Source of the DNA: Chromatiales bacterium
Lineage (GTDB): Bacteria; Pseudomonadota; Gammaproteobacteria; Steroidobacterales; GCA-2729495
Direction: 5' to 3'
NCBI GenBank assembly: GCA_020351875.1
Contig: CP070671.1
Coordinates: 1,580,887 to 1,644,886 of the forward strand
Length of the DNA: 64,000 nucleotides
Position 1 is the stretch's first letter. Each line of letters begins with the position of its first letter. The position numbers were made by a program, and so were the translations under genes. Shown piece by piece: positions 17,034 to 61,476 of this stretch. Under the pieces are notes generated by a model. That model saw only the letters and a list, made by a program, of their open reading frames with translations, was not told the DNA's origin and did not search any database.

Positions 17034-17139
17034 AATCTCGGGGAAACCGGCGCGCCACGGGGGATGGCGGCGTGAGGCGTGGCGGTTTTCATTCAATAAC
17101 AAGAACACTGAAATAACAATAACGCCTCAGGAGTCGACA

Positions 17140-17379: not shown

Positions 17380-17385
17380 CGGCTT

Positions 17386-17438
17386 GCCAGGCCTGTCAAT
17401 TCGCTGCGCGCAGGGACGGCGCCCGCGGCAGGTCTGGC
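17386..17438 (+). other. Long-range hairpin in the hfq-hflX gap
   Basis: GCCAGGCCTG (17386-17395) pairs with CAGGTCTGGC (17429-17438), ten positions with one G-T pair, enclosing 33 bases that hold a second palindrome, CTGCGCGCAG. There is no T-run after it, so it looks more like an mRNA processing or stability element than an intrinsic terminator. Confidence 0.3.
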
Positions 17439-17450
17439 CAGGGGCCCGCT

Positions 17451-18755: not shown

Positions 18756-18772
18756 TATTCAAGATTAACGAG

Positions 18773-20784: not shown

Positions 20785-20852
20785 GCGACGAGCAGCGTAC
20801 GATAGACCACGAGCATTGTTAGCGGAGTTTGCGCTCCGGCGAATCAGCGACG

Positions 20853-22362
<1,510 letters not shown>

Positions 22363-44084: not shown

Positions 44085-44427
44085 GTGAACCCCCTAGTAA
44101 ACAATCCGGCCTATTGCGGAGCAGGCCGTCCCGATGCACGGAATGCAGAGACAGTGAGTGAGTCGATCGCGAGGGAAGGTGCCGGCACAGGTGCCGGCGC
44201 TGGCGGCACGACGGAATCGTGGCCGGCGCCGTGGTGGCGCGGTCGTTTCAGGCCGCCATGGTTGTTGTGGCGAACGGACAGCAATCTGCATCCCCCGATG
44301 CCGTTCGAAAATTAGTTTCCAACTAAACTACCCGTGCGTCAACCCCCCGAAAGGTTTCCCGGTGGGCTGACCGTTGGGCGGTGTGAACCAAAGCCAGCGC
44401 CGGCCCGCGTCGCGAATCTGCCACACC
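44085..44427. other. Non-coding stretch between marR and the TonB receptor gene
   Basis: No convincing gene. It holds the promoter region of the receptor: TTGACG (44342-44337, minus strand) as a -35-like element and the TTAGTT-type palindrome where a -10 is expected. A perfect palindrome GTGCCGGCAC lies around 44180 with a second GGTGCCGGC copy beside it. Short open frames here have no signal, no Shine-Dalgarno and Arg-rich, shadow-like composition. Confidence 0.7.
44312..44326. promoter_or_regulatory. Palindromic operator 1 (candidate MarR site, TonB receptor promoter)
   Basis: TTAGTTTCCAACTAA is a perfect 6-3-6 palindrome and is followed by ACTA. It lies 228 bases before the receptor ATG and overlaps the expected -10 zone downstream of TTGACG. 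The same 19-base pattern occurs at 52600 and 57103. Confidence 0.75.
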
Positions 44428-44931
44428 TTAGCCGGAAGCCGGCTCATCCACGTCCGCCCGGTCCAGCAGCTGCTGCAACTGCGCCAGGCCTGCCGTCAGC
44501 TGCCGGGACTCCGCGGCCGGCAGTTCGTCGAGCATCGTCTCCACGACTTCGCGGTAGGCAGCCTGCATCTCCTCCCAGGCGGACTTCCCGGATTTCGTAA
44601 TCACAACCTGGAGCACACGGCGATCGGTGGCCCGGCGCGTCTGGTCCACGAACCCCTGTTTGCGCAGGCCGCCCACGACGCCGGTCACGTTGCCCTTGGA
44701 CACGCCGAGCTTGCCGGCCAGTTCCGACATCGTCAGGCCATCGGGAAAAGTGACCAGCGCGGTCAGTACGTCGAACCGGGGCAGGCTCAGGTCAAAGCCG
44801 TTGCGCAGGCGGCGGCGCAACGCGCGCTCGACCGTGGTGAAACAGCCCACGAGCGTGAACCACAGGCGGATGGCCTGGTCGTCGTCCGGCAGATCGCCGA
44901 CCATCGATTCGAACAGGTTCGGTTCCTTCAT
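44428..44931 (-). CDS. MarR-family transcriptional regulator
   Basis: Product of 167 residues with the winged helix-turn-helix layout: dimer helix (WFTLVGCFTTVERALRRRL), RFDVLTALVTFPDGLTMSELAGKLGVSKGNVTGVVGGLRKQGFV as recognition region (about 52-95), and the wing DQTRRATDRRVLQVVITKSGK. MarR proteins usually repress by binding short palindromes and release on ligand binding. It is last in the operon that starts at 52515, whose promoter carries a palindrome also found at two other promoters, so autoregulation and local regulon control are likely. Confidence 0.9.
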   Translation of the reverse strand: MKEPNLFESMVGDLPDDDQAIRLWFTLVGCFTTVERALRRRLRNGFDLSLPRFDVLTALVTFPDGLTMSELAGKLGVSKGNVTGVVGGLRKQGFVDQTRRATDRRVLQVVITKSGKSAWEEMQAAYREVVETMLDELPAAESRQLTAGLAQLQQLLDRADVDEPASG

Positions 44932-44946
44932 GCGCGCCGGTCCGCG

Positions 44947-46437
44947 TTACAGCCTGGCCATCACGGACTTCAGCTCCGTGTATTCCAGCAGCCCTTCCAG
45001 GCCGTTCTCCCGCCCCCAGCCCGACTGCTTGTAGCCGCCAAAGGGCACGGCCATGTCCGGTATCGCGTGGCAATTGATCCACACCAGCCCCGCCTGCATC
45101 TCCGCCGCCAGCCGGTGGGCCTTGCCGACGTCGCGCGTCCAGATGCTGGCCGCCAGACCGTAGCGAGACTCATTTGCGAGCGCCGGGATCTGTTCGTTGT
45201 CCTCGATGCGCATCGCGGCCAGCACCGGGCCGAAAATTTCTTCTTGCACGACTTTCATCTGCTGTGTCGTGTTCGTCAGCACCGTCGGCTGCATGAAGTA
45301 ACCGCCGCCCAGGTCCACCCGCTCGCCGCCCGCCGCGACCTGCGCACCCTGGTCAACGCCGGATTCCACCATGCTGCACACGTAGTCGAGGTGCGGTGCG
45401 GAGATCACCGGGCCGATTTCCGTGGCCGGGTCGTGCCCGGGCCCCACCTTCAGGTTCTCGGCAATGCGGGCAACGCCGGCGATCACGTCGTCGTAGACCG
45501 GCGCCTCCACGTAGAGCCGCGAACCGGCGACGCAAATCTGGCCGGCATTCGGGAAGATGCCGGCGGCCACGCCGGGAATGACCTGGTCGAGATCGGCGTC
45601 CGCCAGCACCACCATCGGCGATTTGCCGCCGAGCTCCAGCGTGACCTTTTTCAGGTCTTCCGTGGCGATTCGCGCGATGGCCTTGCCCGTTGCGGTCGAG
45701 CCGGTGAAGGAAATCTTCGCGACCAGCGGGTGGCTGACCAGCGCAGCACCCGCGGCTTCGCCAGTGCCGGTCACGATGTTCACCACGCCGGGCGGCACGC
45801 CGGCCTCCAGCATCAGCTCGCCGAGGCGCAGGCTCGTTAGCGGTGTCTTCTCGTCCGGTTTCAGGATTGCGGAGCAGCCGGCCGCCAGGGCCGGTGCGAG
45901 TTTCCAGCAGGCCTGCACCAGCGGGCCGTTCGACGGCACGATCAGCGCGACCACACCGATCGGCTCGTGGCGCGTGTAGACGTGGAAGTCAGCACCCGGC
46001 ACGGTGGAGATATCCTTGGTGTGGCCTTCCAGCTTGGTGCACCAGCCGGCGTGGTAGCGGAAACACTCGGCCGCAAAGGGCACTTCACCCTGCCGGCCGG
46101 CCGCGAAGGTTTTGCCGGTGTCGAGCATTTCCAGCTCCGCCAGTTCGTCCGCGTTCGCTTCGATCAGGTCACCGACGCGCCACAGGATCGCGGCCCGGGC
46201 CGCGGGCGTGAGGCCTCGCCACGCTTTGCTGTCGAAAGCTTGTTGGGCCGCGCGCGCCGCCCGGTCGACATCGTCGGAACTACCCGCGCCGACCTCGGCA
46301 ATGACCTCCCCGGTGGACGGGTTGTCGATCTGCAGCGTGTCGCCGGCGGCAGTCACCCACTCGCCGCCGACCAGTATCTGCGCCGGGCGCTGCAGAAATT
46401 GCGCGACCTTTGCCGATATTTCGAGCTGTGCACTCAT
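44947..46437 (-). CDS. NAD(P)-dependent aldehyde dehydrogenase
   Basis: Oxidises an aldehyde to its acid. The 496-residue protein has the ALDH signatures: SFTGSTATGKAIA (cofactor site), LELGGKSPMVV (catalytic Glu) and FPNAGQICVAGSRLYV (nucleophilic Cys), plus PFGGYKQSGWGRENG at the C terminus. The NAGQIC context and length resemble phenylacetaldehyde-type dehydrogenases, but substrate calls in this family are unsafe. AGGTGA lies five bases before the ATG. It sits between an aminotransferase and marR. Confidence 0.92.
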   Translation of the reverse strand: MSAQLEISAKVAQFLQRPAQILVGGEWVTAAGDTLQIDNPSTGEVIAEVGAGSSDDVDRAARAAQQAFDSKAWRGLTPAARAAILWRVGDLIEANADELAELEMLDTGKTFAAGRQGEVPFAAECFRYHAGWCTKLEGHTKDISTVPGADFHVYTRHEPIGVVALIVPSNGPLVQACWKLAPALAAGCSAILKPDEKTPLTSLRLGELMLEAGVPPGVVNIVTGTGEAAGAALVSHPLVAKISFTGSTATGKAIARIATEDLKKVTLELGGKSPMVVLADADLDQVIPGVAAGIFPNAGQICVAGSRLYVEAPVYDDVIAGVARIAENLKVGPGHDPATEIGPVISAPHLDYVCSMVESGVDQGAQVAAGGERVDLGGGYFMQPTVLTNTTQQMKVVQEEIFGPVLAAMRIEDNEQIPALANESRYGLAASIWTRDVGKAHRLAAEMQAGLVWINCHAIPDMAVPFGGYKQSGWGRENGLEGLLEYTELKSVMARL

Positions 46438-46450
46438 GGCTTCACCTGGA

Positions 46451-47584
46451 CTAGGCCGTCAAATAGTTTCGCAGCACGTTCAGCGCGGCGTCGTTTTCTG
46501 CATCGTTACCCACCGTGATGCGCAGCACGTCGTGATCAGTGCCTGCAGCACCGCCCACCGGGCGCGGAATGATGCCGTTGGCTTCCAGTGCAGCGGCGGC
46601 TTCTTTTGCAGTCTTGCCCGGGCAGTCGTCGAACACCAGCAGGTAGAAATTGGCTTCGCTCGGCACCACGTGCAGGCCCAGTGACGTCAGGTCCCCGGCA
46701 ATCCTTGCCTGCCAGCGCGCGTTGTGTTCCCGGGCGTGCGTGAGCCAAGCGCTATCGCGCACCGCGGCGGCTGCGGCGGCCATCGCCGCGGCGTTGGCGT
46801 TGAACGGCACACGGATTCTCTGCAGCGCATCGACGAGCCACTGCGAGCCATAGGCCCAGCCGATGCGCAGGCCGGCCAGTCCGTACAGCTTGGAGAAGGA
46901 GCGCGTCATCACGACATTGTCATTCTCGTCAACCAGCGACGCGCCGGCTTCGAAATCATCGGCGGTCACGTATTCGGCGTAGGCACCGTCGAGCAGCAGC
47001 ACCACGTCGGCGGGCAATGCCTGGTGCAGCCGCCGGATTTCCTGCGCATTCACATAGGTGCCGGTGGGGTTGTTCGGGTTTGCGAGGGCCACCACGCGCG
47101 TGTGCGGGCCGACCCGTTCGAGCAGCGCGTCCACGTCCGTGACGAAGTCTTTTTCCGGTGCGGTCACGACCTGGCCGCCGACCGACAGCGCGTAGTTGCG
47201 GCAGATCTCGAAATGATTCTCCGACAGCAGTAATTCGTCGCCGTCGGCCATGAAACAGCGGATCACGAAACCGATCAGCTCCTCGGAACCGTTGCCGCAG
47301 AGAATCCGCTCCGGATCCAGCTCCCAGGTGTCGGCTATCGCTGCCCGCAATTCCGTCTGCGCGCCGTCCGGGTAGCGGTGCAGGCGGTCCTGCACGCTGG
47401 TGAAGGCGGCGATCGCCGCCGGGGAGGTGCCCAGGGCCGATTCATTGCTGGACAGTTTGATCGGTGACGCATGGTCGTCGAGCTGACTCTTGCCCATTTT
47501 GTACAGCGCGAGCTGCGCGACACCGGGCACCATCTGCGGGCGTGTCGTGTTTTCCTGGCGGGGTGTATTGGTGGACTCCGTCAC
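46451..47584 (-). CDS. Class I/II PLP aminotransferase, HisC-like
   Basis: PLP enzyme of 377 residues related to histidinol-phosphate aminotransferases: KLSSNESALGTSP, CGNGSEELIGFVIRCF, ANPNNPTGTYV, LDGAYAEY and the PLP-lysine motif SFSKLYGLAGLRIGWAYG. Its place among amino-acid uptake, TPP and aldehyde dehydrogenase genes, away from other his genes, suggests an aromatic or other amino acid as substrate in catabolism rather than histidine synthesis. The GTG start at 47584 has GGAG eight bases upstream. Confidence 0.87.
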   Translation of the reverse strand: MTESTNTPRQENTTRPQMVPGVAQLALYKMGKSQLDDHASPIKLSSNESALGTSPAAIAAFTSVQDRLHRYPDGAQTELRAAIADTWELDPERILCGNGSEELIGFVIRCFMADGDELLLSENHFEICRNYALSVGGQVVTAPEKDFVTDVDALLERVGPHTRVVALANPNNPTGTYVNAQEIRRLHQALPADVVLLLDGAYAEYVTADDFEAGASLVDENDNVVMTRSFSKLYGLAGLRIGWAYGSQWLVDALQRIRVPFNANAAAMAAAAAAVRDSAWLTHAREHNARWQARIAGDLTSLGLHVVPSEANFYLLVFDDCPGKTAKEAAAALEANGIIPRPVGGAAGTDHDVLRITVGNDAENDAALNVLRNYLTA

Positions 47585-47608
47585 AAAGTCGTCTCCATTG
47601 ATCGGTGC

Positions 47609-48724
47609 CTACAGTTCCATCTGGCGCTGACCCTGTGTGGTCTTGCGCTCCAGGTAGGCTGTGTAGCGAGAAAAAGAAAAACAGAAGATCCAGAAAAACA
47701 CCGCCGCGAACACGTAACCGGTCGCGGTGGTGCCGATGCTGAGCCACTGGGGGTCCGACGCGGCCGTCGTCACCATGCCGAGCAGGTCGAACAGCCCGAT
47801 GATCAGCAGCACCGTGGTCTCCTTGAACAGCCCGATGAAGTTGCTGGTGATTTGCGGCAGGGCCACCGGCAGCGCCTGCGGCAGGATCACCAGCCGGGTA
47901 CGCTGCCAGTAGCTCATCCCCAGTGCATCGGCAGCTTCGTACTGGCCCTTCGGGATGCTCTGCAGCGCCCCGCGTATCGCTTCGGCGAGATAGGAAGACA
48001 TCAGGATGGTCAGCGCGATCAGCGCGCGCAGCAGCTTGTCGATTTCCACACCCGGCGGCATGAACAGCGGAAACATCACGATCGCGACGAACAGCAGCAC
48101 CAGGGCCGGCACACTGCGCCACAGTTCGATCCACAGCGCGCACACACTGCGTACCAGCGGCGCCTCTGCCTGGCGCCCGAGCGCCAGCAGCACGGCCACC
48201 GGCAGCGCGGTGCCCAGCACGAACACCGCGGCAACGATGGTCAGGAAGAAGCCGCCCCACAGGCTGGTCTCGATAGTCGGCAACCCGAAGAAGCCACCAC
48301 GGAACAGCAGCACGCCGATTGCGAGCCAGGCAATCGCGAGTCCCAGCGCGAGCCAGCCTTTGTGACGGACGCGTGGCAGGAACATCGGCACTGCGAGCAA
48401 CAAGCCCAGCCCCACGCCGAGGTTCAGCCGCCAGCGCTGGTCGGCCGGGTACAGGCCGTACATGAACTGGTCGAAGCGGGCGCGGATGAAGGGCCAGCAG
48501 AAGGCGCCTTTGTCGGGGCACGCCTCGGGTCCCGTGCCGCGCCACTGGCCGTCGACGGCGAGCCACTGGAACACAGCCGACCCGGCTCCGTAGATCAGCG
48601 CGGCAGCGAGCAGGGTCAGCCCGATGTTCAGCGGGGTCGAAAAAAGGTTGGCGCGCAGCCACGCGATGGTGCGGGAGCCGCCGGCGTGGCGGGGCGGGGG
48701 CCGGGATGTGATCAGCGTGCTCAT
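47609..48724 (-). CDS. Polar amino acid ABC transporter permease, AapM-like
   Basis: Second inner-membrane subunit of an amino-acid ABC importer. The 371-residue protein has a long N-terminal extension with extra helices, as in the general amino acid permease AapM, and the EAA loop EAADALGMSYWQRTRLVILPQALP near 270-293. Its ATG overlaps the stop of the other permease (ATGA). Confidence 0.9.
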   Translation of the reverse strand: MSTLITSRPPPRHAGGSRTIAWLRANLFSTPLNIGLTLLAAALIYGAGSAVFQWLAVDGQWRGTGPEACPDKGAFCWPFIRARFDQFMYGLYPADQRWRLNLGVGLGLLLAVPMFLPRVRHKGWLALGLAIAWLAIGVLLFRGGFFGLPTIETSLWGGFFLTIVAAVFVLGTALPVAVLLALGRQAEAPLVRSVCALWIELWRSVPALVLLFVAIVMFPLFMPPGVEIDKLLRALIALTILMSSYLAEAIRGALQSIPKGQYEAADALGMSYWQRTRLVILPQALPVALPQITSNFIGLFKETTVLLIIGLFDLLGMVTTAASDPQWLSIGTTATGYVFAAVFFWIFCFSFSRYTAYLERKTTQGQRQMEL

Positions 48725-49851
48725 GCGCGCGTCAGCGCAATGCGCCGGTTGTACCAGTTCATGAACACCGCGATCGCGAGCGACACCAGCACGTAGATGA
48801 TCAGGGTGATGCCCATGATGATCACCGGCTGCCCCACCAGGTTGTTGACGGTGCCGACGAACACGGACACGATTTCCGGGTACGCAATCGCGGCGGCCAG
48901 CGACGTGGCCTTGAACAGGTTCAGGTAAACGGTCGTCAGTGGCGGAATGATGACCCGCAGCGCCTGCGGGAACAGCACCAGCCGGAAGCTGAGCCAGCGG
49001 GACAGGCCCAGCGCGTCCGCGGCCTCCACCTGGCCGCGCGGAATCGCCGCAAACCCTGAGCGCACGATTTCGCCGATGTAGGTCGCGTTGTAGACGGACA
49101 GGCCGGCCACCAGGGCCATGAACTCGGGCATGATCACGATGCCGCCTTCGTAACCGAAGCGCCCCGCCTGCGGGACGTCCCAGTCAAGTGCTGCACCGCC
49201 CAGCAGCGCGGCCAGCCACGGTACCGCGACCAGCAGCGCGATGGCGGTGACCGTCACCGGGAATGCCCGCCCGGAGACCAGGCGTCGGTGCCGGGCCCAG
49301 CGGGCCAGGCCGATGATTGCCGCGATTGCGACGACGAAGCCCGCGGCAATCCAGCCGCCGCCCGTCATGATCTCCGGCGCCGCGAGGTACAAGCCGCGGT
49401 TGTTCAGCCGCGCCGCTTCACCCAGCGACAGGCTGTCCCGGAACCCGGGCAGTGAGCGCAGCACCACGAGATACCAGAAAAAGATCTGCAGCAGCGACGG
49501 AATGTTCCGGAACAGCTCGACATAGGTCGTTGCCAGCTGCGACACGAGCCAGTTGCGGGACAGCCGCGCGGTGCCGACGATCAGCCCCAGCACACTGGCG
49601 CCCACGATCGCCGCGGCGGCCAATACCAGCGTGTTCAGCAACGCGACGACGAAGGCCCGGGCGATGGTCGAGTTGGCATTGAACGGGATCAGGCTCTGGC
49701 TGATTTCAAAACCCGCGCGGCGCCACAGGAAGTCGATGCTGGTTTCGACACCCAGCCGCGAAAGGTTCGCGTTGGTCGCCGACACGATCAGCCCCAGCGC
49801 CGCCACGATCGCGGCGAGCAACAGGGCCTGGTAGATCCACGTGCGACGCAT
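48721..49851 (-). CDS. Polar amino acid ABC transporter permease, AapQ-like
   Basis: First inner-membrane subunit of the importer, 376 residues. It begins MRRTWIYQALLLAAIVAALG, has the expected long loop and several helices, and carries the EAA motif EAADALGLSRWLSFRLVLFPQALR. The ATG at 49851 is preferred; the frame runs upstream into the binding-protein gene. It lies 17 bases after the binding-protein stop. Confidence 0.9.
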   Translation of the reverse strand: MRRTWIYQALLLAAIVAALGLIVSATNANLSRLGVETSIDFLWRRAGFEISQSLIPFNANSTIARAFVVALLNTLVLAAAAIVGASVLGLIVGTARLSRNWLVSQLATTYVELFRNIPSLLQIFFWYLVVLRSLPGFRDSLSLGEAARLNNRGLYLAAPEIMTGGGWIAAGFVVAIAAIIGLARWARHRRLVSGRAFPVTVTAIALLVAVPWLAALLGGAALDWDVPQAGRFGYEGGIVIMPEFMALVAGLSVYNATYIGEIVRSGFAAIPRGQVEAADALGLSRWLSFRLVLFPQALRVIIPPLTTVYLNLFKATSLAAAIAYPEIVSVFVGTVNNLVGQPVIIMGITLIIYVLVSLAIAVFMNWYNRRIALTRA

Positions 49852-49868
49852 GCTGATGAAAGGCAGGT

Positions 49869-50888
49869 TTAACGGAACGGCAGCGCGGACATCAGGCCGC
49901 CGTCGCGCCAGGTCCGGTTCAGGCCGCGGCTCACGCCCAGCGGTGCGAAGTGCCGGTTCCACATGTCCTCGGAGTTCCCGACGATGCGAATGATGTCGTA
50001 GGCCCAGTCGTTTGACAGCCCCAGTCTTTCACCGAAACTGCCCTGCACGCCGAGCAGGCGCCGCACTTCCTGGTTGTCTGATTCGTCGCGCATCCGGCTC
50101 ACGTTGGCTTGGTTGATGCCGAGTTCTTCGGCCGCAATGCGCACGTTGAACGACCACAGCGCGATATCCCGCCAGCGCGGGTCGTCCTGGCGCACCAGTG
50201 CCGCCATCGGTTCCTTGGAAATCACTTCGTCCAGGATTACGTGGTCTTCACGATCGGGCCACACGCTGATGCGGCCGGCGGTAGAGACCCGTTCGTTCGT
50301 GAATGCGTCGCAGCGATCGGCCCGGTAGGCCTGCAGGCCCTTGTCGATGTCGGCAAAGGTGATCGCGGTGTAGCGCAGGCCGTTCGCGTCGAAGTAATCG
50401 GCGAGGTTCTGCTCCAGGGTGGTGCCCTGTGCGACGCAGATCGTCGCGCCATCCAGCTCCGCGACCCGACTCACGCCCAGGGCCTTGTGAACCACGAAGC
50501 CCTGGCCAGCCCACATGTACACGCCGGTGAAATCCAGGCCCATGGTGGTGTCGCGGGTGAAGGACCAGGTCGCGCCGCCCGGGAAGATGTCGATGCCGCC
50601 CGACTGCAACAGCGTGAACACCGTGTTGGGTGTGATCGGCACGAACTCGATGCTGACCTTGCCGAACACCGCGGCAGAAATCGTCTTGCAGTGATCGATA
50701 TCGAAACCGACCCTTTCGCCCTTGTCGTTCAGCGTGCTGTAGCCCGGGCTGCCCTCGATGACCCCGCACCGCAGGAAGCCGCGTTCACGCACGTCGGCCA
50801 GCGTGTCCGCGCGGGCCGTCGCGATGGCAAAGACGGCCACCGGCAGCACCAGCAGGTACCCCCAACGCCGCGCGCCGCCGCCGTGCAT
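49869..50888 (-). CDS. Periplasmic amino acid-binding protein (SBP family 3, AapJ-like)
   Basis: Periplasmic receptor of the ABC importer, 339 residues, with a signal peptide ending ATARA near residue 27. DTLADVRERGFLRCGVIEGSPGYSTLNDKGERVGFDID is the usual N-terminal lobe of AapJ/BztA proteins, and TTLEQNLADYF lies in the hinge region. Length and internal features match general polar amino acid binders rather than small GlnH types. It follows the TPP enzyme by four bases. Confidence 0.9.
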   Translation of the reverse strand: MHGGGARRWGYLLVLPVAVFAIATARADTLADVRERGFLRCGVIEGSPGYSTLNDKGERVGFDIDHCKTISAAVFGKVSIEFVPITPNTVFTLLQSGGIDIFPGGATWSFTRDTTMGLDFTGVYMWAGQGFVVHKALGVSRVAELDGATICVAQGTTLEQNLADYFDANGLRYTAITFADIDKGLQAYRADRCDAFTNERVSTAGRISVWPDREDHVILDEVISKEPMAALVRQDDPRWRDIALWSFNVRIAAEELGINQANVSRMRDESDNQEVRRLLGVQGSFGERLGLSNDWAYDIIRIVGNSEDMWNRHFAPLGVSRGLNRTWRDGGLMSALPFR

Positions 50889-50892
50889 GGCC

Positions 50893-52515
50893 TCAGCTCC
50901 GCGCCGCCGGCAGCATGATGAACTCCCACGGGCTGGTCATTTCGTCCACCGGAACCTCGATCAGCACCGGCCCGTCGGCGGCGAAGCCTTTGCGCAGCGC
51001 ACCGCGCAGTTCTTCGGGCGTGGTCGCACGCAGGCCCAGCGCGCCGAAGCTCTCGGCCAGGGCCACGAAGTCCGGGTTGCGCAGCTCCGCGCCGAGATTG
51101 TCGTCGCCGAAGCGATCGCGCAGGTCCCGGTGCACGTTGCCGAAGCGGTTGTCGCGAAAGATGACCGTCACCAGCTTTATGCCTTCCGCGACCGCAGTGG
51201 CCACTTCCTGCACGTTGTACATGAACCCGCCGTCACCACTGATCTGCAACACGGGTTTGTCCGGGTGCGCGACTTTCACGCCCAGCGCCGTGGCGTAGCC
51301 GTAGCCCAGCGTGCCCTGGTAACCGCTGGAGATGAAATGCCGGGGCAGGTAGGACGGGAAACCGAACCAGGACGCGAAGCCGGTTTGCGTCACCTCGTCG
51401 ACGAAGTAGCCGTCGTCCGGCAGCTCTTCACGCATCACTTGCAGGTAGCTCAGCTGGGGCTGGATGCGTTCATATTCAGCCGCCATGCCCCCCTTGAGCG
51501 TTTCCAGTTCATCCTGGCGAGAGGCGCGGGTGGCCATGTGTTTCGGCAGCTCGTCGATCAGCGCGGCCAGCGTGCAGCGCGCGTCTGCTACCAGGCCCAC
51601 CGCCGGTGCCTGCACCCGCGCGACTTCCTCCGGGTCGATGTCCACGCGAATGATGTTCAGCCCCTTGGTGCCCCAGTACATCAGCGGGTACTTCAGGCGG
51701 GTACCGACGGCGAGCACCACGTCGGCGTCGCGCCACAGGCGGTGCCCGGCCGGATAGGTCTGGCTGAGGTAGTGACGGTCGCTGACCACACCCTTGCCCT
51801 GGCGGTGCGATACCACCGGGGCCTGCAACATGTCGGCGACCGCGAGCAGCTCTTCGCCCGCGTCCCGCGCGCCGCCGCCGACCATGATCAGCGGGCGCTT
51901 CGCCGCGCCCAGCAGCTGCGCGGCCGCGGTCACCGCATCGGGATCGGGCTCGGCGGCCGGGTATTGCCTGACCGCATCCAAGAGTTGAACTTCTTGTTCT
52001 AACTCCATGATATCCGGCGCCATTTCCAGCTCGACGGGCCGTGGCCTGCCGGTCTGCAGCTGGCGGAAGGCCTCGGCCACGAGGGCGGGGGCGTCGGCGG
52101 GCTGCTCGATCCGTTCGGCCCACTTCGTGAGCCGGCGCATGATGCCGAGCTGGTCGGGGAGTTCGTGCAGGTAGCCGGCACCCGAGCCGATGCCGACCGT
52201 CGGCACCTGGCCGGTCAGGCACAGCACCGGGGCGTTGCAGGCCCAGGCCGTGCACAGCGCGGTGGTTGTATTCAGTACGCCGGGGCCGGGCACCACGTCG
52301 TAAACACCCACCCGGCCGGTGGACTGGGCATAGCCAAGAGCCATGTAGGCCGCGCCCTGTTCGTGGCGCGACGTGATGATGCGCAGCTGATCGCGTTGCC
52401 GGTAGAACGCGTCGTACAGGTAGTACAGCTGGCCGCCGGGCAGGCCGAATATCGTGTCGACACCGTGGTTCACCACGGAGCGTACGATCGCTTGCGCGCC
52501 GGTCATCCGAGTCAT
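50893..52515 (-). CDS. Thiamine diphosphate-dependent enzyme, acetolactate synthase-like
   Basis: TPP enzyme of 540 residues with the three-domain POX/ALS layout: Glu52 in SRHEQGAAYMALGYAQ (cofactor activation), a central domain (about 190-320), and a C-terminal TPP-binding segment ISGDGGFMYNVQEVATAV ending in FRDN. It could form acetolactate-type products or decarboxylate a 2-oxo acid, for example the product of the downstream aminotransferase; sequence alone does not decide. It is the first gene of a seven-gene operon with operator 2 upstream, and it lacks a small regulatory subunit gene. Confidence 0.85.
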   Translation of the reverse strand: MTRMTGAQAIVRSVVNHGVDTIFGLPGGQLYYLYDAFYRQRDQLRIITSRHEQGAAYMALGYAQSTGRVGVYDVVPGPGVLNTTTALCTAWACNAPVLCLTGQVPTVGIGSGAGYLHELPDQLGIMRRLTKWAERIEQPADAPALVAEAFRQLQTGRPRPVELEMAPDIMELEQEVQLLDAVRQYPAAEPDPDAVTAAAQLLGAAKRPLIMVGGGARDAGEELLAVADMLQAPVVSHRQGKGVVSDRHYLSQTYPAGHRLWRDADVVLAVGTRLKYPLMYWGTKGLNIIRVDIDPEEVARVQAPAVGLVADARCTLAALIDELPKHMATRASRQDELETLKGGMAAEYERIQPQLSYLQVMREELPDDGYFVDEVTQTGFASWFGFPSYLPRHFISSGYQGTLGYGYATALGVKVAHPDKPVLQISGDGGFMYNVQEVATAVAEGIKLVTVIFRDNRFGNVHRDLRDRFGDDNLGAELRNPDFVALAESFGALGLRATTPEELRGALRKGFAADGPVLIEVPVDEMTSPWEFIMLPAARS

Positions 52516-52599
52516 GAATCGCCTATCCTGTAACGCGCCCGGTGGTCGCCCGACCGCTACCCCACGGGGTGTCGGACCGCACCGGAGCGTCTTTCGATA

Positions 52600-52614
52600 T
52601 TAGTTTATTACTAA
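52600..52614. promoter_or_regulatory. Palindromic operator 2 (candidate MarR site, divergent promoter)
   Basis: TTAGTTTATTACTAA, followed by ACTA, lies in the 128-base gap between the divergent TPP-enzyme operon and the SDR gene. It is the TTAGTT-N3-AACTAA pattern with one mismatch. For the minus strand TGGACA (52626-52621) and ACTAAT (52604-52599), 16 bases apart, form a likely promoter whose -10 is covered by the palindrome. Confidence 0.75.
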
Positions 52615-52643
52615 ACTATTTGTCCATCTGCGAGGGGCCACGC

Positions 52644-53501
52644 ATGGCAACAATTCTGATCACTGGTTGCGGCAGCGGTTTCGGCAAGCTGTCCGCCGTC
52701 GAACTGGCCCGCCGGGGTCACCGGGTCTTCGCGAGTTGCCGCACCTTGGCCGCCGCGGACCAGCTGGGGGCGGAGACCGCCGGCCGCGACGGGATCGTGC
52801 CCCTGGCACTGGACGTGACGGACCAGGCCTCCGTGGATGCGGCGATGCGCCGCATCGGTGACGCCGCCGGCGCCATCGACGTGCTGGTGAACAACGCGGG
52901 CATTGCGCGGCTCGGCGCGCTGGAAGATCTCGACGCCGACGCGTTGCGCGGGGTGATGGAAACGAATTTTTTCGGCGCCTTGCGCGTGACTCGCGCGGTG
53001 CTGGCGGGCATGCGCACGCAGGGCGAGGGGCGGATCATCATGGTCTCGTCGCTGTCGGCCCTGGTGGGCCTGCCAGGCGAGGGTATCTACGCCGCGAGCA
53101 AGGCCGCGCTGGAGGCCGCCGCCGAAAGCCTGCGCTACGAAGTGGACCGGTTTGGCATCCACGTGTCAGTGGTCGAGCCCGGTGCCTTCGACACCGCCAT
53201 GCCGGCGAAACTGGCGGCGGGCGACGCGGTCCCCGCGGCCTCGCCGTATCGCCCGCTGCTCAGTTACCTGACGGCACGCGCGCAGCGCCAGCTGGGCACC
53301 GGCGACGATCCGCAGCGGGTCGCGACGCTGATCGCGGACATTGCCGAGACCGACGAACCGGGCTTCCGCTACGCGGCCGGGCGCCAGGCGGAACAGGTCG
53401 TGCAGAGGCTGCGCGCGCTCGACGAATCGGCGCGCGCCGATTTCATTCGCGGGGTCAACGACACGCAGTGGTGGTCGGCGGGGGCCGACCGACCGGAATG
53501 A
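52644..53501 (+). CDS. Short-chain dehydrogenase/reductase
   Basis: NAD(P)-dependent oxidoreductase of 285 residues. It has the cofactor motif TGCGSGFGK (TGxxxGxG, residues 7-14), NNAG at about 90, and the Ser/Tyr/Lys triad in VSSLSALVGLPGEGIYAASKAALE. The substrate is unknown. GAGGGG precedes the ATG at 52644. It is divergent from the TPP-enzyme operon across operator 2 and is followed within eight bases by a dnaJ-like gene. Confidence 0.92.
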   Translation: MATILITGCGSGFGKLSAVELARRGHRVFASCRTLAAADQLGAETAGRDGIVPLALDVTDQASVDAAMRRIGDAAGAIDVLVNNAGIARLGALEDLDADALRGVMETNFFGALRVTRAVLAGMRTQGEGRIIMVSSLSALVGLPGEGIYAASKAALEAAAESLRYEVDRFGIHVSVVEPGAFDTAMPAKLAAGDAVPAASPYRPLLSYLTARAQRQLGTGDDPQRVATLIADIAETDEPGFRYAAGRQAEQVVQRLRALDESARADFIRGVNDTQWWSAGADRPE

Positions 53502-53509
53502 CGGCTCGC

Positions 53510-54607
53510 ATGGCTGAGCGTGACTACTACAAAGTGCTGGGCGTACCGCGGGATGCGGACCGCAAGGCGATCAAGGACGCCTATCACCGGCTGGCGATGC
53601 AGTGGCACCCGGATCGCAATTCGTCGCCCGAGGCGGAGGGGCGCTTCAAGGAAATCGCCAAGGCCTATGCGGTGTTGTCCGATCCGAAGAAGCGGGCGAG
53701 TTACGACGCGCACGGTTTCGAGGGCGTCGCGCATTTTTCCCCGGACGAGCTGTACCGGGGTGTCGACCTGGGGAGCCTGTTCGGGGATCTCGGCTTCGGC
53801 TTCGGCCCGGGCGGGCAGAGTATTTTCGATCGGTTCTTCGGCGGACCGCGGGCGCCCGGGCGGGGTGCCGATCTGCAGGTGCGCCTGGACGTGCCGCTGG
53901 AGCGCATCGCGACCGGGGGCAAGGAAACCGTGCACGTCAGCCGGCCGGTGGCCTGCGGTAAATGCCACGGGCATGGCACGCGCTCGGGTCAGCCGCCGCC
54001 GGTTTGCGAGGCCTGCGGCGGCACAGGCCACAAGGTCGTGACCCGGCAAGCCGACGGAAAAGACCATCGCGAAATCCATTTCCAGCAAATTCTCCGCTGC
54101 ACGAAATGTGACGGTGCCGGCACGATCATCGACAAGTCCTGCACGAAATGCGGCGGTACCGGCCAGGTAGAAAAAGTCGAAACCCTGAAGGTCAAGATCC
54201 CGGCCGGCATCGAGGACGGCATGGTGCTGCGGGTGGCGGGCCACGGGCTGCCCGGCGCGGCGGGTGAAGCGCCTGGTGACCTGCATGTCGCCGTGTTCAC
54301 CAGTCCCGATGCCCGCTTTCAACGGCGCGACGCGGACCTGTGGCGAGGCATCACGATCGACGTGGCCGATGCGGTGCTGGGTACCCAGGTGCAGGTGCCG
54401 ACGCTGAGCGGTGAGGTGGAGGTGAAGGTGCCGGCCGGCACGCAGCCGAATGAAGTGCTGCGCCTGCGGGGCCAGGGCCTGCCGCGCCTGGGGACCGCCG
54501 ATCGCGGTGACCTGAAGCTGCGGGTGCAGGTGCACGTGCCCACGGAGCCGTCGGCAGACGAGCGGAATCTCTACGAGCGGCTGCAGGGACTGCGCCGGCG
54601 GACCTGA
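53510..54607 (+). CDS. DnaJ-type co-chaperone (class A) paralogue
   Basis: Co-chaperone of 365 residues that would stimulate an Hsp70 ATPase. It has a J domain with HPD (MAERDYYKVLG to about 70), a short Gly/Phe region, four CxxCxGxG zinc motifs (CGKCHGHG, CEACGGTG, CTKCDGAG, CTKCGGTG), and two C-terminal substrate-binding domains. It is not next to dnaK or grpE; it is coupled to an SDR gene behind operator 2. I chose the ATG at 53510, giving the usual MAxRDYYxVLG start; an ATG at 53498 overlapping the SDR stop is also possible. Confidence 0.88.
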   Translation: MAERDYYKVLGVPRDADRKAIKDAYHRLAMQWHPDRNSSPEAEGRFKEIAKAYAVLSDPKKRASYDAHGFEGVAHFSPDELYRGVDLGSLFGDLGFGFGPGGQSIFDRFFGGPRAPGRGADLQVRLDVPLERIATGGKETVHVSRPVACGKCHGHGTRSGQPPPVCEACGGTGHKVVTRQADGKDHREIHFQQILRCTKCDGAGTIIDKSCTKCGGTGQVEKVETLKVKIPAGIEDGMVLRVAGHGLPGAAGEAPGDLHVAVFTSPDARFQRRDADLWRGITIDVADAVLGTQVQVPTLSGEVEVKVPAGTQPNEVLRLRGQGLPRLGTADRGDLKLRVQVHVPTEPSADERNLYERLQGLRRRT

Positions 54608-54613
54608 GCCGGT

Positions 54614-55366
54614 TCAGTGCTTCAGGATCTGCCCGAGGAAGGTCCGGGCCCGTTCGGTCGTCGGGTGGTTAAAGAAGGTGTCCGGGTCGTTCGCCTCGAT
54701 GATCTGGCCTTCGTCCATGAACACGATCCGGTTCGCGACCTGGCGCGCAAACCCCATCTCGTGGGTCACACACAGCATCGTGATGCCGGAGTCCGCGAGA
54801 CCGATCATCGTGTCGAGCACTTCGTGAATCATCTCCGGGTCGAGGGCCGACGTGGGTTCGTCGAACAGCATGATGCGCGGTTCCATGCACAGTGCGCGCG
54901 CAATGGCCACGCGCTGCTGCTGACCGCCGGACAGCTGTGCCGGGTACTTTTCTGCGTGCTCGGTCAGCTTGACCCGGTCCAGGTAATTCAGCGCCAGTTC
55001 GCGGGCCCTGGCTTCCGGCAACTTGCGCACCCGCATCGGGGCGAGTTCCAGGTTCTCGAGCACCGTCAGGTGCGGAAACAGGTTGAACTGCTGGAAGACC
55101 ATGCCGACTTCCCGCCGCACCGCTTCGATATCGCGCACCTTCTTCAGCACCGTGTTCTCGACGCGAATGGAACCTTCCTGGTAGTCCTCCAGTGCATTGA
55201 TGCAACGGATCAGCGTGGACTTGCCGGACCCGGATGGCCCGCAGATCACGATCTTTTCGCCCGGCGCGACCGCCAGGTCGATGTCGCGCAGTGCGTGGTA
55301 GTCGCCGTACCACTTGTTCAGCGACTCGATTGCGATGATCGGTTCGGGGCTGCCCGGTGCGTTCAT
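54614..55366 (-). CDS. Amino acid ABC transporter ATPase (GlnQ/AapP-like)
   Basis: ATP-binding subunit of a polar amino acid importer, 250 residues: Walker A CGPSGSGKSTLIRCIN, FQQFNLFPHLTVLENL, signature LSGGQQQRVAIARAL, Walker B IMLFDEPTSALDPEM, and VTHEMGFARQVANR. It very likely serves the AapJQM-like proteins encoded at 47.6-50.9 kb, whose operon lacks an ATPase. It is downstream of eda, four bases away, on the same strand. The ATG at 55366 is the first Met before the conserved domain. Confidence 0.93.
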   Translation of the reverse strand: MNAPGSPEPIIAIESLNKWYGDYHALRDIDLAVAPGEKIVICGPSGSGKSTLIRCINALEDYQEGSIRVENTVLKKVRDIEAVRREVGMVFQQFNLFPHLTVLENLELAPMRVRKLPEARARELALNYLDRVKLTEHAEKYPAQLSGGQQQRVAIARALCMEPRIMLFDEPTSALDPEMIHEVLDTMIGLADSGITMLCVTHEMGFARQVANRIVFMDEGQIIEANDPDTFFNHPTTERARTFLGQILKH

Positions 55367-55370
55367 CGCG

Positions 55371-56027
55371 TCACGACCCGGCGCCGCCGGCCCGACGGTG
55401 CAGGCAGATGTCTGCCGCCTGCTGTGCCCGCGCGAGGATGCCCGGCCAGTCGCGCGCGGCGATGTCGGCGGCGGGCGCCAGCCAGGTACCGCCGGCGGCG
55501 AACACGGCCGGCACCGAGAGGTAGTCAGCCAGCGTGGTGTCCCGGACGCCACCACTCGGGCAGAAGCGCATGTGCGGGAACACGTCACTGAACTGCCGGA
55601 TCATTGCGGTGCCGCCGAGGCGCTCGGCAGGAAAGACTTTCACCGCGTGATAGCCAAAGTCGGCGGCCGTCATCAGTTCGCTCGCGGTCGCGATGCCAGG
55701 CAGGTAGGCGATGTCGAGTTCGCGCCCGGCGTGAGCGAGACTGTCGGTCAGTCCCGGGCTGACGGCAAACTGGGCGCCGATTTCCACCGCCCGTTCCAGG
55801 TGGTTCGCGTGCGTCACGGTGCCGATGCCCAGCAAGATATCGGGAAACGCCGCACGCACTGCTGCCGCCGCTTCCCATGCCCCCGGCTTGCGCAGCGTCA
55901 GTTCGATGCTGCGCAGCCCGCCGTCCTGCAGGGCCGAAGCCACCGCCACCGCATCATCCGCCTTGTCGACGGTGACGACCGGAATGACCGTGGGTTCGGG
56001 AAACAGTTCGAGCAACGTGAGGGGCAT
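55371..56027 (-). CDS. eda: 2-dehydro-3-deoxy-6-phosphogluconate (KDPG) aldolase
   Basis: Cleaves KDPG to pyruvate and glyceraldehyde 3-phosphate. The 218-residue TIM barrel keeps the catalytic Glu42 (SIELTLRKP), the GIGTV strand, and the Schiff-base Lys130 in YHAVKVFPAE, positions close to those of E. coli Eda. It is divergent from the KDG kinase gene and followed by an ABC ATPase. With ManD and KdgK it completes a sugar-acid route. Confidence 0.94.
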   Translation of the reverse strand: MPLTLLELFPEPTVIPVVTVDKADDAVAVASALQDGGLRSIELTLRKPGAWEAAAAVRAAFPDILLGIGTVTHANHLERAVEIGAQFAVSPGLTDSLAHAGRELDIAYLPGIATASELMTAADFGYHAVKVFPAERLGGTAMIRQFSDVFPHMRFCPSGGVRDTTLADYLSVPAVFAAGGTWLAPAADIAARDWPGILARAQQAADICLHRRAGGAGS

Positions 56028-56094
56028 CGCGCGGTTCGTGTCGCAACACTCGGCTCATGGCATCATGATCGCCAGAACATACCACGAAGTTTCA

Positions 56095-57048
56095 GTGCCC
56101 CGAGAATCATCCAACGCGCTGCGTGTCGCCTGCATCGGCGAATGCATGATCGAACTGAGTCTGCGCGCCGACGGCAGCCTGCACCAGGGCTTTGCGGGTG
56201 ATACCGCCAATCTCGCGGTGTACCTGGCGAGACTGTTGCCAGCGGCGCAGATCGCCTATGTCACGGCGCTGGGCAAGGATCCGTTCAGCGACCGGATGCT
56301 GGCCGGCTGGCAGGACGACCACATCGATACCCGCCTGGTGCGTCGGCTGGCCGACCGCTTGCCCGGCCTGTACTGGATCGACACGGACGCGAGCGGTGAG
56401 CGCAGTTTCTATTACTGGCGAGAGCAGTCCGCCGCGCGGGCCATGTTCAGTGATGCTTATTTGAGTGACGTGCAGGCGAGCCTCGCCGGTTTCGACCTCG
56501 TGTGCCTGAGCGGTATCACGCTCGCGATCCTGCCGGCCGATGACCGGGCAGAGCTGCTGGCAACGCTCGGCAGTCTGCGCCGGGCCGGCAGCCGGATTGT
56601 GTTCGACAGCAATTACCGCCCGCGGCTCTGGCCAGTGGTGCGCGACGCCCAGGCCTGCCATCGGGACGCGATGGCCGTCGCGGACATCGTGATTGCGAGC
56701 TTTGACGACGAGCGTGCGCTGTTCGGTGACGAATCAGCGGCGGCTACCCGGGCGCGGATCAGCGCGGCGGGTCTCGCCGAGGTGGTGGTGCGGCAGGGGC
56801 ACGGTGACTCCCTGTTACTGGCCGACGGGCAGAGCGAATCCGTGCCGCCGGCCGTGGCGGGCCAAGTGGTGGACACGACCGGGGCCGGCGACGCGTTCGA
56901 CGCGGCCTATCTTGCGGCGCGGCTGAGCGGGCAGCCAGGGGCCGCCGCAGCCCGGGCGGGCCACCGCCTGGCAGCCCAGGTCGTCGCGGTGCCCGGTGCG
57001 ATCCTGCTCCGCGCGACCACGCCGGCACTGGAGGCACTGCTGGCCTGA
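56095..57048 (+). CDS. kdgK: 2-keto-3-deoxygluconate kinase (PfkB family)
   Basis: Phosphorylates KDG to KDPG. The 317-residue protein begins VACIGECMIELS after a short lead, has FAGDTANLAVYLARLLP (sugar site), FDSNYRPRLWP, and the anion-hole/catalytic motif DTTGAGDAFDAAYL. The pairing with eda and manD supports the KDG assignment over fructokinase. The start is uncertain: GTG at 56095 (chosen) or ATG at 56065. An imperfect dyad around ATCATGAT at 56058-56074 lies in the shared eda-kdgK promoter region and covers the ATG option. Confidence 0.88.
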   Translation: MPRESSNALRVACIGECMIELSLRADGSLHQGFAGDTANLAVYLARLLPAAQIAYVTALGKDPFSDRMLAGWQDDHIDTRLVRRLADRLPGLYWIDTDASGERSFYYWREQSAARAMFSDAYLSDVQASLAGFDLVCLSGITLAILPADDRAELLATLGSLRRAGSRIVFDSNYRPRLWPVVRDAQACHRDAMAVADIVIASFDDERALFGDESAAATRARISAAGLAEVVVRQGHGDSLLLADGQSESVPPAVAGQVVDTTGAGDAFDAAYLAARLSGQPGAAAARAGHRLAAQVVAVPGAILLRATTPALEALLA

Positions 57049-57059
57049 CGCGCTCCGCC

Positions 57060-57078
57060 CAAAGGCCCGCGGCCTTTG
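57060..57078. other. Palindrome overlapping the manD -35 element
   Basis: CAAAGGCC and GGCCTTTG form a perfect 8-bp inverted repeat around CGC, 12 bases after the kdgK stop. It could be a weak terminator for kdgK, but no T-run follows outside the stem. Because its right arm enters the -35 hexamer of the manD promoter, a second operator is also possible. Confidence 0.45.
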
Positions 57079-57104
57079 ACAGACCCGCGGCCCGGGCCTA
57101 AGAT
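57076..57104 (+). promoter_or_regulatory. manD operon promoter
   Basis: A consensus TTGACA (57076-57081) and TAAGAT (57099-57104, four of six) are 17 bases apart. The predicted start site, near 57111, falls inside operator 3. It is one of the clearest sigma-70 promoters in the window. Confidence 0.7.
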
Positions 57105-57117
57105 AGTTCATAACTAA
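57103..57117. promoter_or_regulatory. Palindromic operator 3 (candidate MarR site, manD promoter)
   Basis: ATAGTTCATAACTAA, followed by ACTA, matches operators 1 and 2 (one mismatch from TTAGTT-N3-AACTAA, at the outermost base). It begins at the end of the -10 and spans the expected transcription start, a position that would block RNA polymerase. Confidence 0.75.
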
Positions 57118-57171
57118 ACTAATGGCCCCGTATACCCCTTTGGAGTCATTGCGGATGGACGAGCGGGCGGT

Positions 57172-58380
57172 ATGAAAATCACCGAGGCCCGGGTGATCGT
57201 GACCTCGCCCGGTCGCAATTTCGTCACGCTGAAGATCCTGACCGACGACGGTGTCTACGGCATCGGCGATGCGACCCTGAACGGCCGTGAGCAGGCCGTG
57301 GTCGCGTACCTGCAAGAGCACCTGGTGCCGTTGCTGATCGGCCGGGACCCGCACCAGATCGAAGACACCTGGCAGTACCTGTACCGCGGTGCGTACTGGC
57401 GGCGCGGGCCGGTGACGATGGCGGCGATCAGCGCGGTGGACGTCGCGCTGTGGGACATCAAGGCGAAAGTCGCCGGCCTGCCGCTCTACGAATTGCTGGG
57501 TGGCCGCTCGCGCGACGGGGTGATGGTCTACGGCCATGCCAATGGTCGGGACATCGAAGAGACCGCGAATGAAGTCGCGCGCTATCTCGACATGGGTTAT
57601 CGGGCGGTACGCGCGCAGTGCGGCATACCGGGCCTGCAGAGCACCTACGGTGTCTCCGGCGACAAGCTCTATTACGAGCCGGCCGATGCCGACCTGCCGA
57701 CGGAAAACCTGTGGTCGACCGAACGCTACCTGGATCACGTGCCGCAGCTGTTCGCGACGCTGCGCGAACGCTTCGGTTTCGAACCGCACCTGCTGCACGA
57801 CGTGCATCACCGGCTGACGCCGATCGAGGCGGCACGTCTTGGCAAGTCGCTGGAAGACTACCGGCTGTTCTGGCTGGAAGACGCGGTGCCGGCCGAAAAC
57901 CAGGCCGGTTTCGAACTGATCCGCCAGCACACGGTCACGCCGCTGGCGGTGGGCGAAGTGTTCAACACCATCTGGGACTGCAAGGAACTGATCGAAAGCC
58001 AGCTGATCGACTACATCCGCGCGACGGTGGTGCATGCCGGCGGCATCACACACCTGCGGCGTATTGCCGATCTTGCCGCGCTGTACCACGTGCGCACGGG
58101 CTGTCACGGTGCCACCGACCTGTCGCCGATCTGCATGGGTGCGGCGCTGCATTTCGACACCTGGGTACCGAACTTCGGGATCCAGGAATACATGCGGCAT
58201 ACGGCGGAAACGGATGCGGTATTTCCCCACGCCTACTTTTTCAAGGACGGCGCGCTGTATCCGGGCCAGGAACCAGGGCACGGCGTGGACATCGACGAGA
58301 AGCTGGCGGCGAAGTATCCGTACCAGCGCGCCTACCTGCCGGTGAACCGACTGGCCGACGGCACGGTGTGGCACTGGTAA
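57172..58380 (+). CDS. manD: D-mannonate dehydratase (ManD/RspA, enolase superfamily)
   Basis: Dehydrates D-mannonate (or D-gluconate in some members) to 2-keto-3-deoxygluconate. The 402-residue protein keeps the residues known from characterised ManD at the same numbers: Arg147, Tyr159, metal ligands Asp210, Glu236 and Glu262, and the base His212 in [11 protein letters not shown]. The C terminus [12 protein letters not shown] is typical. Some members of this subgroup have very low activity, so the substrate is not proven. It leads a seven-gene operon and lies 54 bases after operator 3; kdgK and eda are adjacent. Confidence 0.93.
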
Positions 58381-61187: not shown

Positions 61188-61454
61188 ATGCAGGTCAAGA
61201 GCAAGCTGGCCAACGTGGAGTTCCAGTTGGGCGATATCGAGCGGAAGGGCAACACGCTGGTGATTTCGAGCCATCCGTCGCAGACCATGAAGAGCAAGGT
61301 GTACATCAGCCCGGCGGATGTCGTGGCCTTCCTCGGCCGGCTGGTGCGCAGCCCGTCTGCACTGCTGTTCGTGCTGGGCCTGCCGGTGTTCTACTTCCGC
61401 GCCCGGGGTGACAAGCAGCCAGACAAGAAAGCCGGGCCGCGTCCCAGGCAATAG
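61188..61454 (+). CDS. Small protein of unknown function (88 aa)
   Basis: Short protein within the manD operon. Residues 1-40 are polar beta-type (NVEFQLGDIERKGNTLVISS), residues about 44-70 form one possible membrane helix (VVAFLGRLVRSPSALLFVLG), and the tail is basic (RARGDKQPDKKAGPRPRQ). It matches no family I recognise. It keeps the operon's strand and close spacing (18 bases after the hydrolase), which supports a real gene, but its Shine-Dalgarno sequence is weak. Its stop overlaps a repeat arm. Confidence 0.6.
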   Translation: MQVKSKLANVEFQLGDIERKGNTLVISSHPSQTMKSKVYISPADVVAFLGRLVRSPSALLFVLGLPVFYFRARGDKQPDKKAGPRPRQ

Positions 61455-61472
61455 GTCAACGGTCCCCGGAAT
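61454..61472. repeat. Degenerate single arm of the 34-kb inverted repeat
   Basis: GGTCAACGGTCCCCGGAAT matches the right arm at 34060-34078 with two base differences over the stretch from GTCAAC to CCGGAA and its edge. No partner arm is seen nearby. It lies in the 22-base gap between two genes of the manD operon. Confidence 0.7.
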
Positions 61473-61476
61473 CAAG

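Follow-up and report, generated by a model that had tools for sequence, protein, structure and literature searches.

The single-contig genome of a Chromatiales bacterium (assembly GCA_020351875.1; 3,488,936 bases, completeness given as 95.57) holds a cluster of uptake and catabolic genes in a stretch of 64,000 bases that we analysed as a whole and call the window (CP070671.1, positions 1,580,887 to 1,644,886). The cluster includes marR, a gene for a MarR-type regulator, and three near-identical palindromes, treated here as candidate operators 1 to 3 (Table 1). A preliminary description of this DNA had reported the palindromes at 44312, 52600 and 57103, and all three are there. They lie where it had placed them relative to the genes: 5' of a gene for a TonB-dependent receptor, between the divergent genes of a thiamine pyrophosphate (TPP) enzyme and a short-chain dehydrogenase/reductase (SDR), and 5' of manD. 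It had also named marR as the only MarR gene of the window and the last gene of the operon read from the second palindrome. Both points hold: marR ends the minus-strand run that starts at this palindrome, and just one of the 15 PF12802 hits in the genome falls in the window.

The candidate operator is an 18-bp inverted repeat

The palindromes had been read as a 15-bp dyad, TTAGTT-N3-AACTAA, with a flanking ACTA. In its strict form this dyad is perfect only at 44312 and has one mismatch at each of the other two sites. The ACTA does follow every site, as the end of the second half-site of an overlapping inverted repeat that is centred elsewhere, TAGTTTA-N4-TAAACTA (hereafter the 18-mer). The sites show two overlapping symmetries, and it is the 18-bp repeat that relatives keep: 20 sites of other genomes have a mean of 1.15 mismatches in 14 positions to the 18-mer vs 2.25 in 12 to the 15-mer, a comparison that leans towards the 18-mer because these sites had been found with it. 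On these means we adopted the 18-mer as the conserved operator and dropped the 15-bp register. Operators 1, 2 and 3 have, respectively, 1, 0 and 1 mismatches to it in 14 positions. Its half-sites are 11 bp apart from centre to centre, about one helical turn, which is the spacing expected of a dimeric winged-helix protein.

The motif is confined to the cluster

With up to 3 mismatches the 18-mer occurs three times in the window, and 100 dinucleotide shuffles gave a mean of 0.06 and at most 1. Over the whole genome, up to 2 mismatches yield three places, all in the window (1 for the backwards control). The relaxed pattern TANTTTANNNNTAAANTA at up to 1 mismatch finds only the same three (control 0), and WTAGTTNNNNACTAAACTA with 0 mismatches fits the genome nowhere else, all these patterns having been derived from the sites themselves. 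The claim that the motif occurs nowhere else thus holds genome-wide: the dozens of unrelated matches named beforehand as evidence to the contrary are absent, with none at these mismatch limits beyond the three sites in 3.49 Mb. A genome match with 3 mismatches is also present (L008).

A weight matrix trained solely on the 20 sites found outside the source genome was run over the window and locus L009. It ranks operators 2, 3 and 1 at the top of the window (Table 1); the fourth-best place scores 3.6, and the training sites themselves 22.2-38.8. The test is not fully independent, as the relatives' sites came from a search seeded with the motif of the window and of a second genome of the genus (G003), a seeding that could not impose the location of those sites. 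We left out of the matrix the 18-mer matches (up to 2 mismatches) at L120:19032, L121:10494, L122:18262 and L123:3677, 4970 and 12317, those at L124:8172, L125:7168 and 14162, L126:16328, L132:3948, L133:8864 and L076:19207, and the betaproteobacterial sites, because the match was weak, or because the gene following the site was another one or could not be identified. One place near the window, L009:4054 (window-equivalent 66667), was not counted since its score of 13.7 is below that of the weakest training site (22.2), and a one-mismatch match inside a 513-aa open reading frame (ORF) of another genome (G016:C10:34633) was set aside as chance.

Relatives keep sites upstream of the same genes

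In G003 the MarR is 62% identical to that of the window. The three sites of this genome (up to 2 mismatches) all lie on the contig of its marR, before manD, the TPP operon and the receptor gene. The ORFs from the decarboxylase to the receptor are contiguous, with MarR as the only regulator among them. The 40 kb of this contig that we examined contain no match to the ATP-binding cassette (ABC) genes, dnaJ or the FAD oxidoreductase gene, and the SDR is matched only at 30%, elsewhere. Another genome of the genus (G004) has one site about 12 bp before manD and a second between SDR and TPP; this contig stops after the TPP gene, and for MarR the best match has only 34% identity. In G021, a 2-mismatch site precedes the receptor gene and a second site precedes a run of DUF819, manD (matching only in part), FAD oxidoreductase, amidase, TPP and aminotransferase genes. 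The same association of sites and genes is seen in G117, G275, G102, G265, G150 and L080; in G102, G265 and G150 the divergent aminotransferase and manD units own one site each, 99, 98 and 79 bp apart. Altogether, a search of 12 gammaproteobacterial loci (195,166 bases) that allowed up to 2 mismatches gave 13 sites, spread over 6 of these loci, compared with a mean of 0.225 and a maximum of 1 for 40 palindromes with permuted half-sites.

The inner-membrane importer seems to be swapped between these clusters: an ABC binding protein with permeases in the window (47609-50888), a DUF819 membrane protein in G275, G117, G021 and L080. In G150, two extra sites (L123:3677 and 4970) flank an acyl-CoA dehydrogenase gene beside a second MarR gene (38% identical), possibly the regulon of a MarR paralogue with the same operator. 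The sequence TACTTTATGCTTAAACTA stands about 100 bp before another TonB receptor gene (27%) in G099 and G114 (L124:8172 and L125:7168), on a contig apart from their MarR.

The motif follows MarR beyond the pathway

The order was surveyed in 296 genomes: a MarR match at E ≤ 1e-25 is present in 19 of them, and 41 sites with no more than 1 mismatch are spread over 26. Such sites occur in 10 of the 19 MarR-bearing genomes and in 16 of the 277 others (Fisher P = 2.5e-7; 1.5e-6 without the source genome, G000), numbers that are not independent because the genomes are related. Outside the source genome, 12 of 38 sites lie less than 17 kb from MarR.

The association persists where the other genes change. 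Six receptor loci, two in family f13 (L074, L131) and four that resemble them (L075, L077-L079), share with the window, among its genes searched, MarR and a distant receptor (28-29%), as well as a far-off DnaJ in L074; in each, a diverged site, AGGTTTAGYTGTAAAGTG or AGGTTTAGTTGTAAAATA, precedes the receptor match by about 100-165 bp. At 21 betaproteobacterial loci (L081-L101; Burkholderiales where named) MarR identity is 35-40%. None of the 21 matches the receptor, ManD, TPP enzyme, aminotransferase or aldehyde dehydrogenase of the window, and its other genes are matched only by a generic SDR of 30-36% identity (19/21) and a major facilitator superfamily protein (1/21). Their MarR gene is near that of salicylyl-CoA 5-hydroxylase (PRK08255 over cut-off in L100; tblastn matches in 21/21). 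The relaxed pattern TANTTTANNNNTAAANTA (up to 2 mismatches) lies 22-134 bp before the hydroxylase gene in all 18 of these homologous loci that hold its start, the remaining three contigs starting within the gene, and the strict 18-mer (up to 2 mismatches) is found in 10 of the 21 (control mean 0.2, largest 2). Because these loci share MarR and the site and not the catabolic genes, the motif is tied to MarR rather than to the pathway. On alphaproteobacterial plasmids (3 loci examined of 124 records matched), the salicylyl-CoA 5-hydroxylase genes of L066 and L068 are preceded by 3-mismatch matches that start 68 and 110 bp upstream, and L067 has only a 4-mismatch match.

In 9 of the 21 betaproteobacterial loci (L085-L087, L090, L092, L094, L095, L097 and L100, e.g., L100:6652 and 6667) the match is followed by a weaker one that starts 15 bp further on and overlaps it by 3 bases; a tandem operator before the hydroxylase gene is possible. 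Other, weakly related MarR genes within the order have TAGTTT-N6-AAACTA about 100-290 bp away (G039:C223:5175, G053:C131:10994, G052:C99:14511), so the operator grammar may be common to further MarR branches.

The regulator has a predicted MarR fold

The protein passes the Pfam cut-offs of MarR_2 (PF12802, 49.9 bits against 27) and MarR (PF01047, 40.3 against 24.6). No named NCBIfam MarR-type equivalog (FabT, BilQ, MprA, OhrR, HpaR, SlyA and others) is over cut-off; the best, FabT, reaches 52.6 bits of 200, and all 14 families at E ≤ 0.001 stay below theirs. The AlphaFold2 model of the monomer (mean predicted local distance difference test [pLDDT] 85.5, predicted template modelling score [pTM] 0.71) supports a MarR fold with helical ends and a central winged helix. 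The best 50 of 265 Foldseek matches (E ≤ 0.001) are MarR-type by name, several of them in DNA complexes, and the matches include complexes with aromatic ligands. MarR regulators typically act as dimers on a palindrome of about 16-20 bp close to their own operon. In the window, an 18-bp palindrome stands at the putative promoter of the marR operon, and it is kept together with the protein across genomes.

A model of the regulon and its alternatives

Two of the palindromes overlap sigma-70-like promoters (Table 1). Operator 2 overlaps most of the spacer of the minus-strand promoter and two bases of its -10 box, and the -10 box upstream of manD shares its last base with the start of operator 3; a dimer bound at either place would block polymerase. 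Repression and response to a ligand are traits of the MarR family. From the computed sites, their confinement and their recurrence with MarR, we infer that the three palindromes are very probably the operators of an autoregulated MarR repressor that controls units of uptake and catabolism. A MarR dimer would bind TAGTTTA-N4-TAAACTA at or inside the promoters of three units: the TonB receptor and lipoprotein genes; the operon of the TPP enzyme, solute-binding protein, two permeases, aminotransferase, aldehyde dehydrogenase and marR, plus the divergent SDR-dnaJ pair; and the operon of manD, FAD oxidoreductase, amidase, isochorismatase and decarboxylase. Bound MarR would repress all units and, as marR is the last gene of its operon, would limit itself. 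An aromatic acid or another pathway intermediate would release it, switching on uptake and catabolism together.

The preliminary description had one repressor governing outer-membrane uptake, ABC import and about 18 catabolic genes. A single local MarR regulon is strongly favoured by the confinement of the sites, their recurrence before the same genes in relatives and their persistence with MarR where other genes differ, and ABC import is covered only in part, since the transporter's ATPase gene is not behind an operator. The gene count is 16 in the window, with operon membership taken from strand and spacing. It becomes 18 only if two small genes are co-transcribed: a DUF3291 gene, which overlaps the stop of the decarboxylase gene and extends past the end of the window, and the DM13 gene that follows.

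Several observations weigh against the repressor model. Nine of the 19 MarR-bearing genomes of the order lack any site with 1 mismatch or fewer, and loci L127 and L128 lack one even when 2 are allowed. Across genomes, the backwards control often gives as many raw 2-mismatch matches as the 18-mer, or more, so that the signal is in the location of the sites and not in their number. The relatives' consensus is partly seeded, having been gathered with the motif first seen in the window. The control for TANTTTANNNNTAAANTA is noisy: 60 permuted half-sites match a mean of 1.8 of the 18 betaproteobacterial upstream regions and one matches 14, which slightly lowers our confidence in the model, and these loci, being homologous, do not amount to 18 independent events. 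The three alphaproteobacterial loci offer nothing better than 3-4 mismatches. Finally, a simple scan of 44080-44430 gave no sigma-70-like promoter around operator 1.

This last gap would suit a MarR that activates, or both activates and represses, as some family members do (PMC9613470). We consider this unlikely, since the same source describes most characterised MarR proteins as repressors and a dimer on operators 2 and 3, which overlap the spacer and -10 boxes, would stand in the way of polymerase. Less likely again is that the palindromes belong to another regulator encoded elsewhere, with MarR in the cluster by chance or controlling something else. The genome leaves room for this, with 12 of its 15 PF12802 hits over cut-off in a regulator search that covered PF12802 alone, but the motif stays with the MarR lineage as other genes change (18/18 betaproteobacterial operons, 6/6 f13-type loci), and MarR is the sole regulator within the contiguous G003 cluster. 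We give almost no credence to the sites being repeats with no part in regulation, such as mobile or duplicated promoter DNA: their cores are near-identical, but this reading is contradicted by other genera, which conserve the core and differ in spacer and flanks, the flanks are alike only within the 18-mer (by eye), and the copies precede co-conserved genes.

Genes of the proposed regulon and their possible substrate

Table 1. Features of the cluster, with positions in the window.
Feature	Positions	Strand	Remarks
Lipoprotein-like protein	40599..41546	-	Conserved, without Pfam family; lipoprotein signal judged by eye
TonB-dependent receptor	41640..44084	-	Behind operator 1
Operator 1	44313..44330		TAGTTTCCAACTAAACTA; between marR 3' end and TonB receptor start; matrix score 22.8
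marR	44428..44931	-	167-aa winged-helix regulator; last gene of operon behind operator 2
Aldehyde dehydrogenase	44947..46437	-	Nearest model phenylacetaldehyde dehydrogenase StyD, below its cut-off
HisC-like aminotransferase	46451..47584	-	Best PDB hit a putative phenylalanine aminotransferase
ABC permease	47609..48724	-	Polar amino acid type; behind operator 2
ABC permease	48721..49962	-	Polar amino acid type; start uncertain, overlaps binding protein
ABC solute-binding protein family 3	49869..50888	-	Behind operator 2
TPP enzyme	50893..52515	-	PRK08266 family (over cut-off); first gene behind operator 2
Sigma-70-like promoter	52597..52626	-	TGGACA-18-TAATAT; 9/12; shuffles mean 0.0, standard deviation 0.1
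Operator 2	52601..52618		TAGTTTATTACTAAACTA; 7-4-7 inverted repeat without mismatch, in the interval from which TPP-enzyme operon and SDR diverge; matrix score 32.0
SDR oxidoreductase	52644..53501	+	Divergent from TPP enzyme
DnaJ-type chaperone	53468..54607	+	All three DnaJ domains
ABC ATPase, GlnQ-like	54614..55588	-	Domain from residue 85; not behind an operator
KDPG (2-keto-3-deoxy-6-phosphogluconate) aldolase Eda	55371..56027	-	Not behind an operator
KDG (2-keto-3-deoxygluconate) kinase	56107..57048	+	Upstream of operator 3, not behind it
Sigma-70-like promoter	57076..57104	+	TTGACA-17-TAAGAT; 10/12; shuffles mean 0.0, standard deviation 0.2
Operator 3	57104..57121		TAGTTCATAACTAAACTA; upstream of manD; matrix score 28.1
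ManD	57172..58380	+	Over the cut-off of the D-mannonate dehydratase equivalog; nearest gene behind operator 3
FAD oxidoreductase	58403..59983	+	CrtO/amine-oxidase-like; behind operator 3
Carbon-nitrogen hydrolase	60015..61169	+	Formamidase/amidase-like; behind operator 3
Isochorismatase-fold hydrolase	61318..62166	+	Domain from residue 85, start may be later
Pyridoxal phosphate decarboxylase	62163..63611	+	Closest to tyrosine/aromatic-L-amino-acid decarboxylases; tyrosine decarboxylase 488 bits

Judged from protein likenesses, the breakdown of aromatic amino acids or aryl-pyruvates is the likeliest theme of the regulon. The TPP enzyme is a probable 2-keto-acid decarboxylase, so that a transaminase, such a decarboxylase, an arylacetaldehyde dehydrogenase and an aromatic amino acid decarboxylase would stand together. 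The tyrosine-decarboxylase-like, phenylalanine-aminotransferase-like and StyD-like enzymes point the same way, as does G265, where a 2-mismatch site precedes a subunit like those of indolepyruvate ferredoxin oxidoreductase (below model cut-off). ManD aligns over its full length with a ManD of solved structure and retains R147, Y159, D210, H212, E236, E262 and H312, which we take to be the catalytic residues. Since ManD also stays in the regulon across genera, we raise, speculatively, an aromatic amino acid conjugated to a sugar acid or hexose as the substrate, a marine nutrient so far unrecorded that would enter through the dedicated TonB receptor; we give a low probability to this reading as a whole, in which one MarR joins the aromatic-amino-acid route with ManD and sister MarRs have re-used the operator grammar for betaproteobacterial aryl-CoA operons.

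Other genes of the cluster call for brief comment. The lipoprotein-like gene sits after the receptor gene, and a relative lies inside the catabolic operon of G117 (L120:12993-14429), where the frame continues into a stretch resembling, by eye, a glyoxalase-type domain. The SDR unit of this catabolic regulon encodes a full DnaJ (J, zinc-finger and C-terminal domains), for which the examined stretches of G003 and G004 contain no match. Comparison with G004 led us to reject two reading frames as coding: unk54617 (54617-55591 +), antisense to the ABC ATPase gene, and the first ~100 residues of the KDG kinase ORF (55819-57048 +), antisense to eda; relatives' matches to both ORFs are thus antisense in part. 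The left part of the window (3791-22362, 10 ORFs scanned) resembles ordinary chromosome, with an LptF/G-type permease, MutL, HflX, two Band 7 proteins (HflK/C-like) and adenylosuccinate synthetase.

Comparison with known systems

With this model, a so far uncharacterised gene cluster of uncultured Gammaproteobacteria becomes a circuit open to test, its operator, regulator and genes all specified, and a MarR subfamily found in gamma- and betaproteobacteria gains a proposed operator. The boundary of the regulon brings together the TonB receptor, an importer and a set of enzymes which would fall into separate pathways on annotation alone, and this grouping is the best clue to their common substrate. 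We found no report of a MarR with a TTAGTT palindromic operator in the open-licence literature, which does not establish its absence from print. Judged by title, the items listed there for MarR and TAGTTTA were unrelated and none of those listed for aromatic regulation in Woeseia concerned such a regulon; the papers listed for salicylyl-CoA 5-hydroxylase and MarR do not mention that enzyme.

Among the closest counterparts are the MarR proteins of the betaproteobacterial salicylyl-CoA 5-hydroxylase operons (L081-L101), for which we know of no published name. They share a relaxed form of the same operator at the identity given above and differ in their target, an aryl-CoA pathway (L100). Among named regulators, DesR of Sphingobium sp. 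SYK-6 is described as a MarR repressor of aromatic catabolism whose effectors, vanillate and syringate, are pathway substrates (PMC6888825). Like the proposed operators, its short inverted repeats stand at several separate promoters, its own included; unlike them, its 15-bp repeats (GTTTGTGTCACATAC, GTTTGTGTAACATAC) differ from TAGTTTA-N4-TAAACTA, and the genes reported there are others (PMC6888825). The main text of that paper does not contain the word TonB. IadR/MarR_73 of Variovorax represses the indole-3-acetate catabolic locus from a 24-bp site between iadR and iadA (PMC9613470). It has the MarR fold and appears among the Foldseek and phmmer matches of the window protein, whereas identity in the structural matches is 22-23% and the gene set described for it differs (PMC9613470). 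PheR of Sphingobium SHPJ-2 is likewise a single repressor affecting both aromatic catabolism and TonB-dependent receptors, but it is reported as an IclR-type protein with the core GCAACG, and its effect on receptors was seen in the transcriptome (PMC13273656). MarR control of several aromatic-catabolism promoters is already known from the accounts of DesR, and of IadR at one locus. The novelty appears to lie in this particular regulon, in its operator and in how far both have spread; kept in the same arrangement by related bacteria, the circuit is very probably real but of an ordinary kind.

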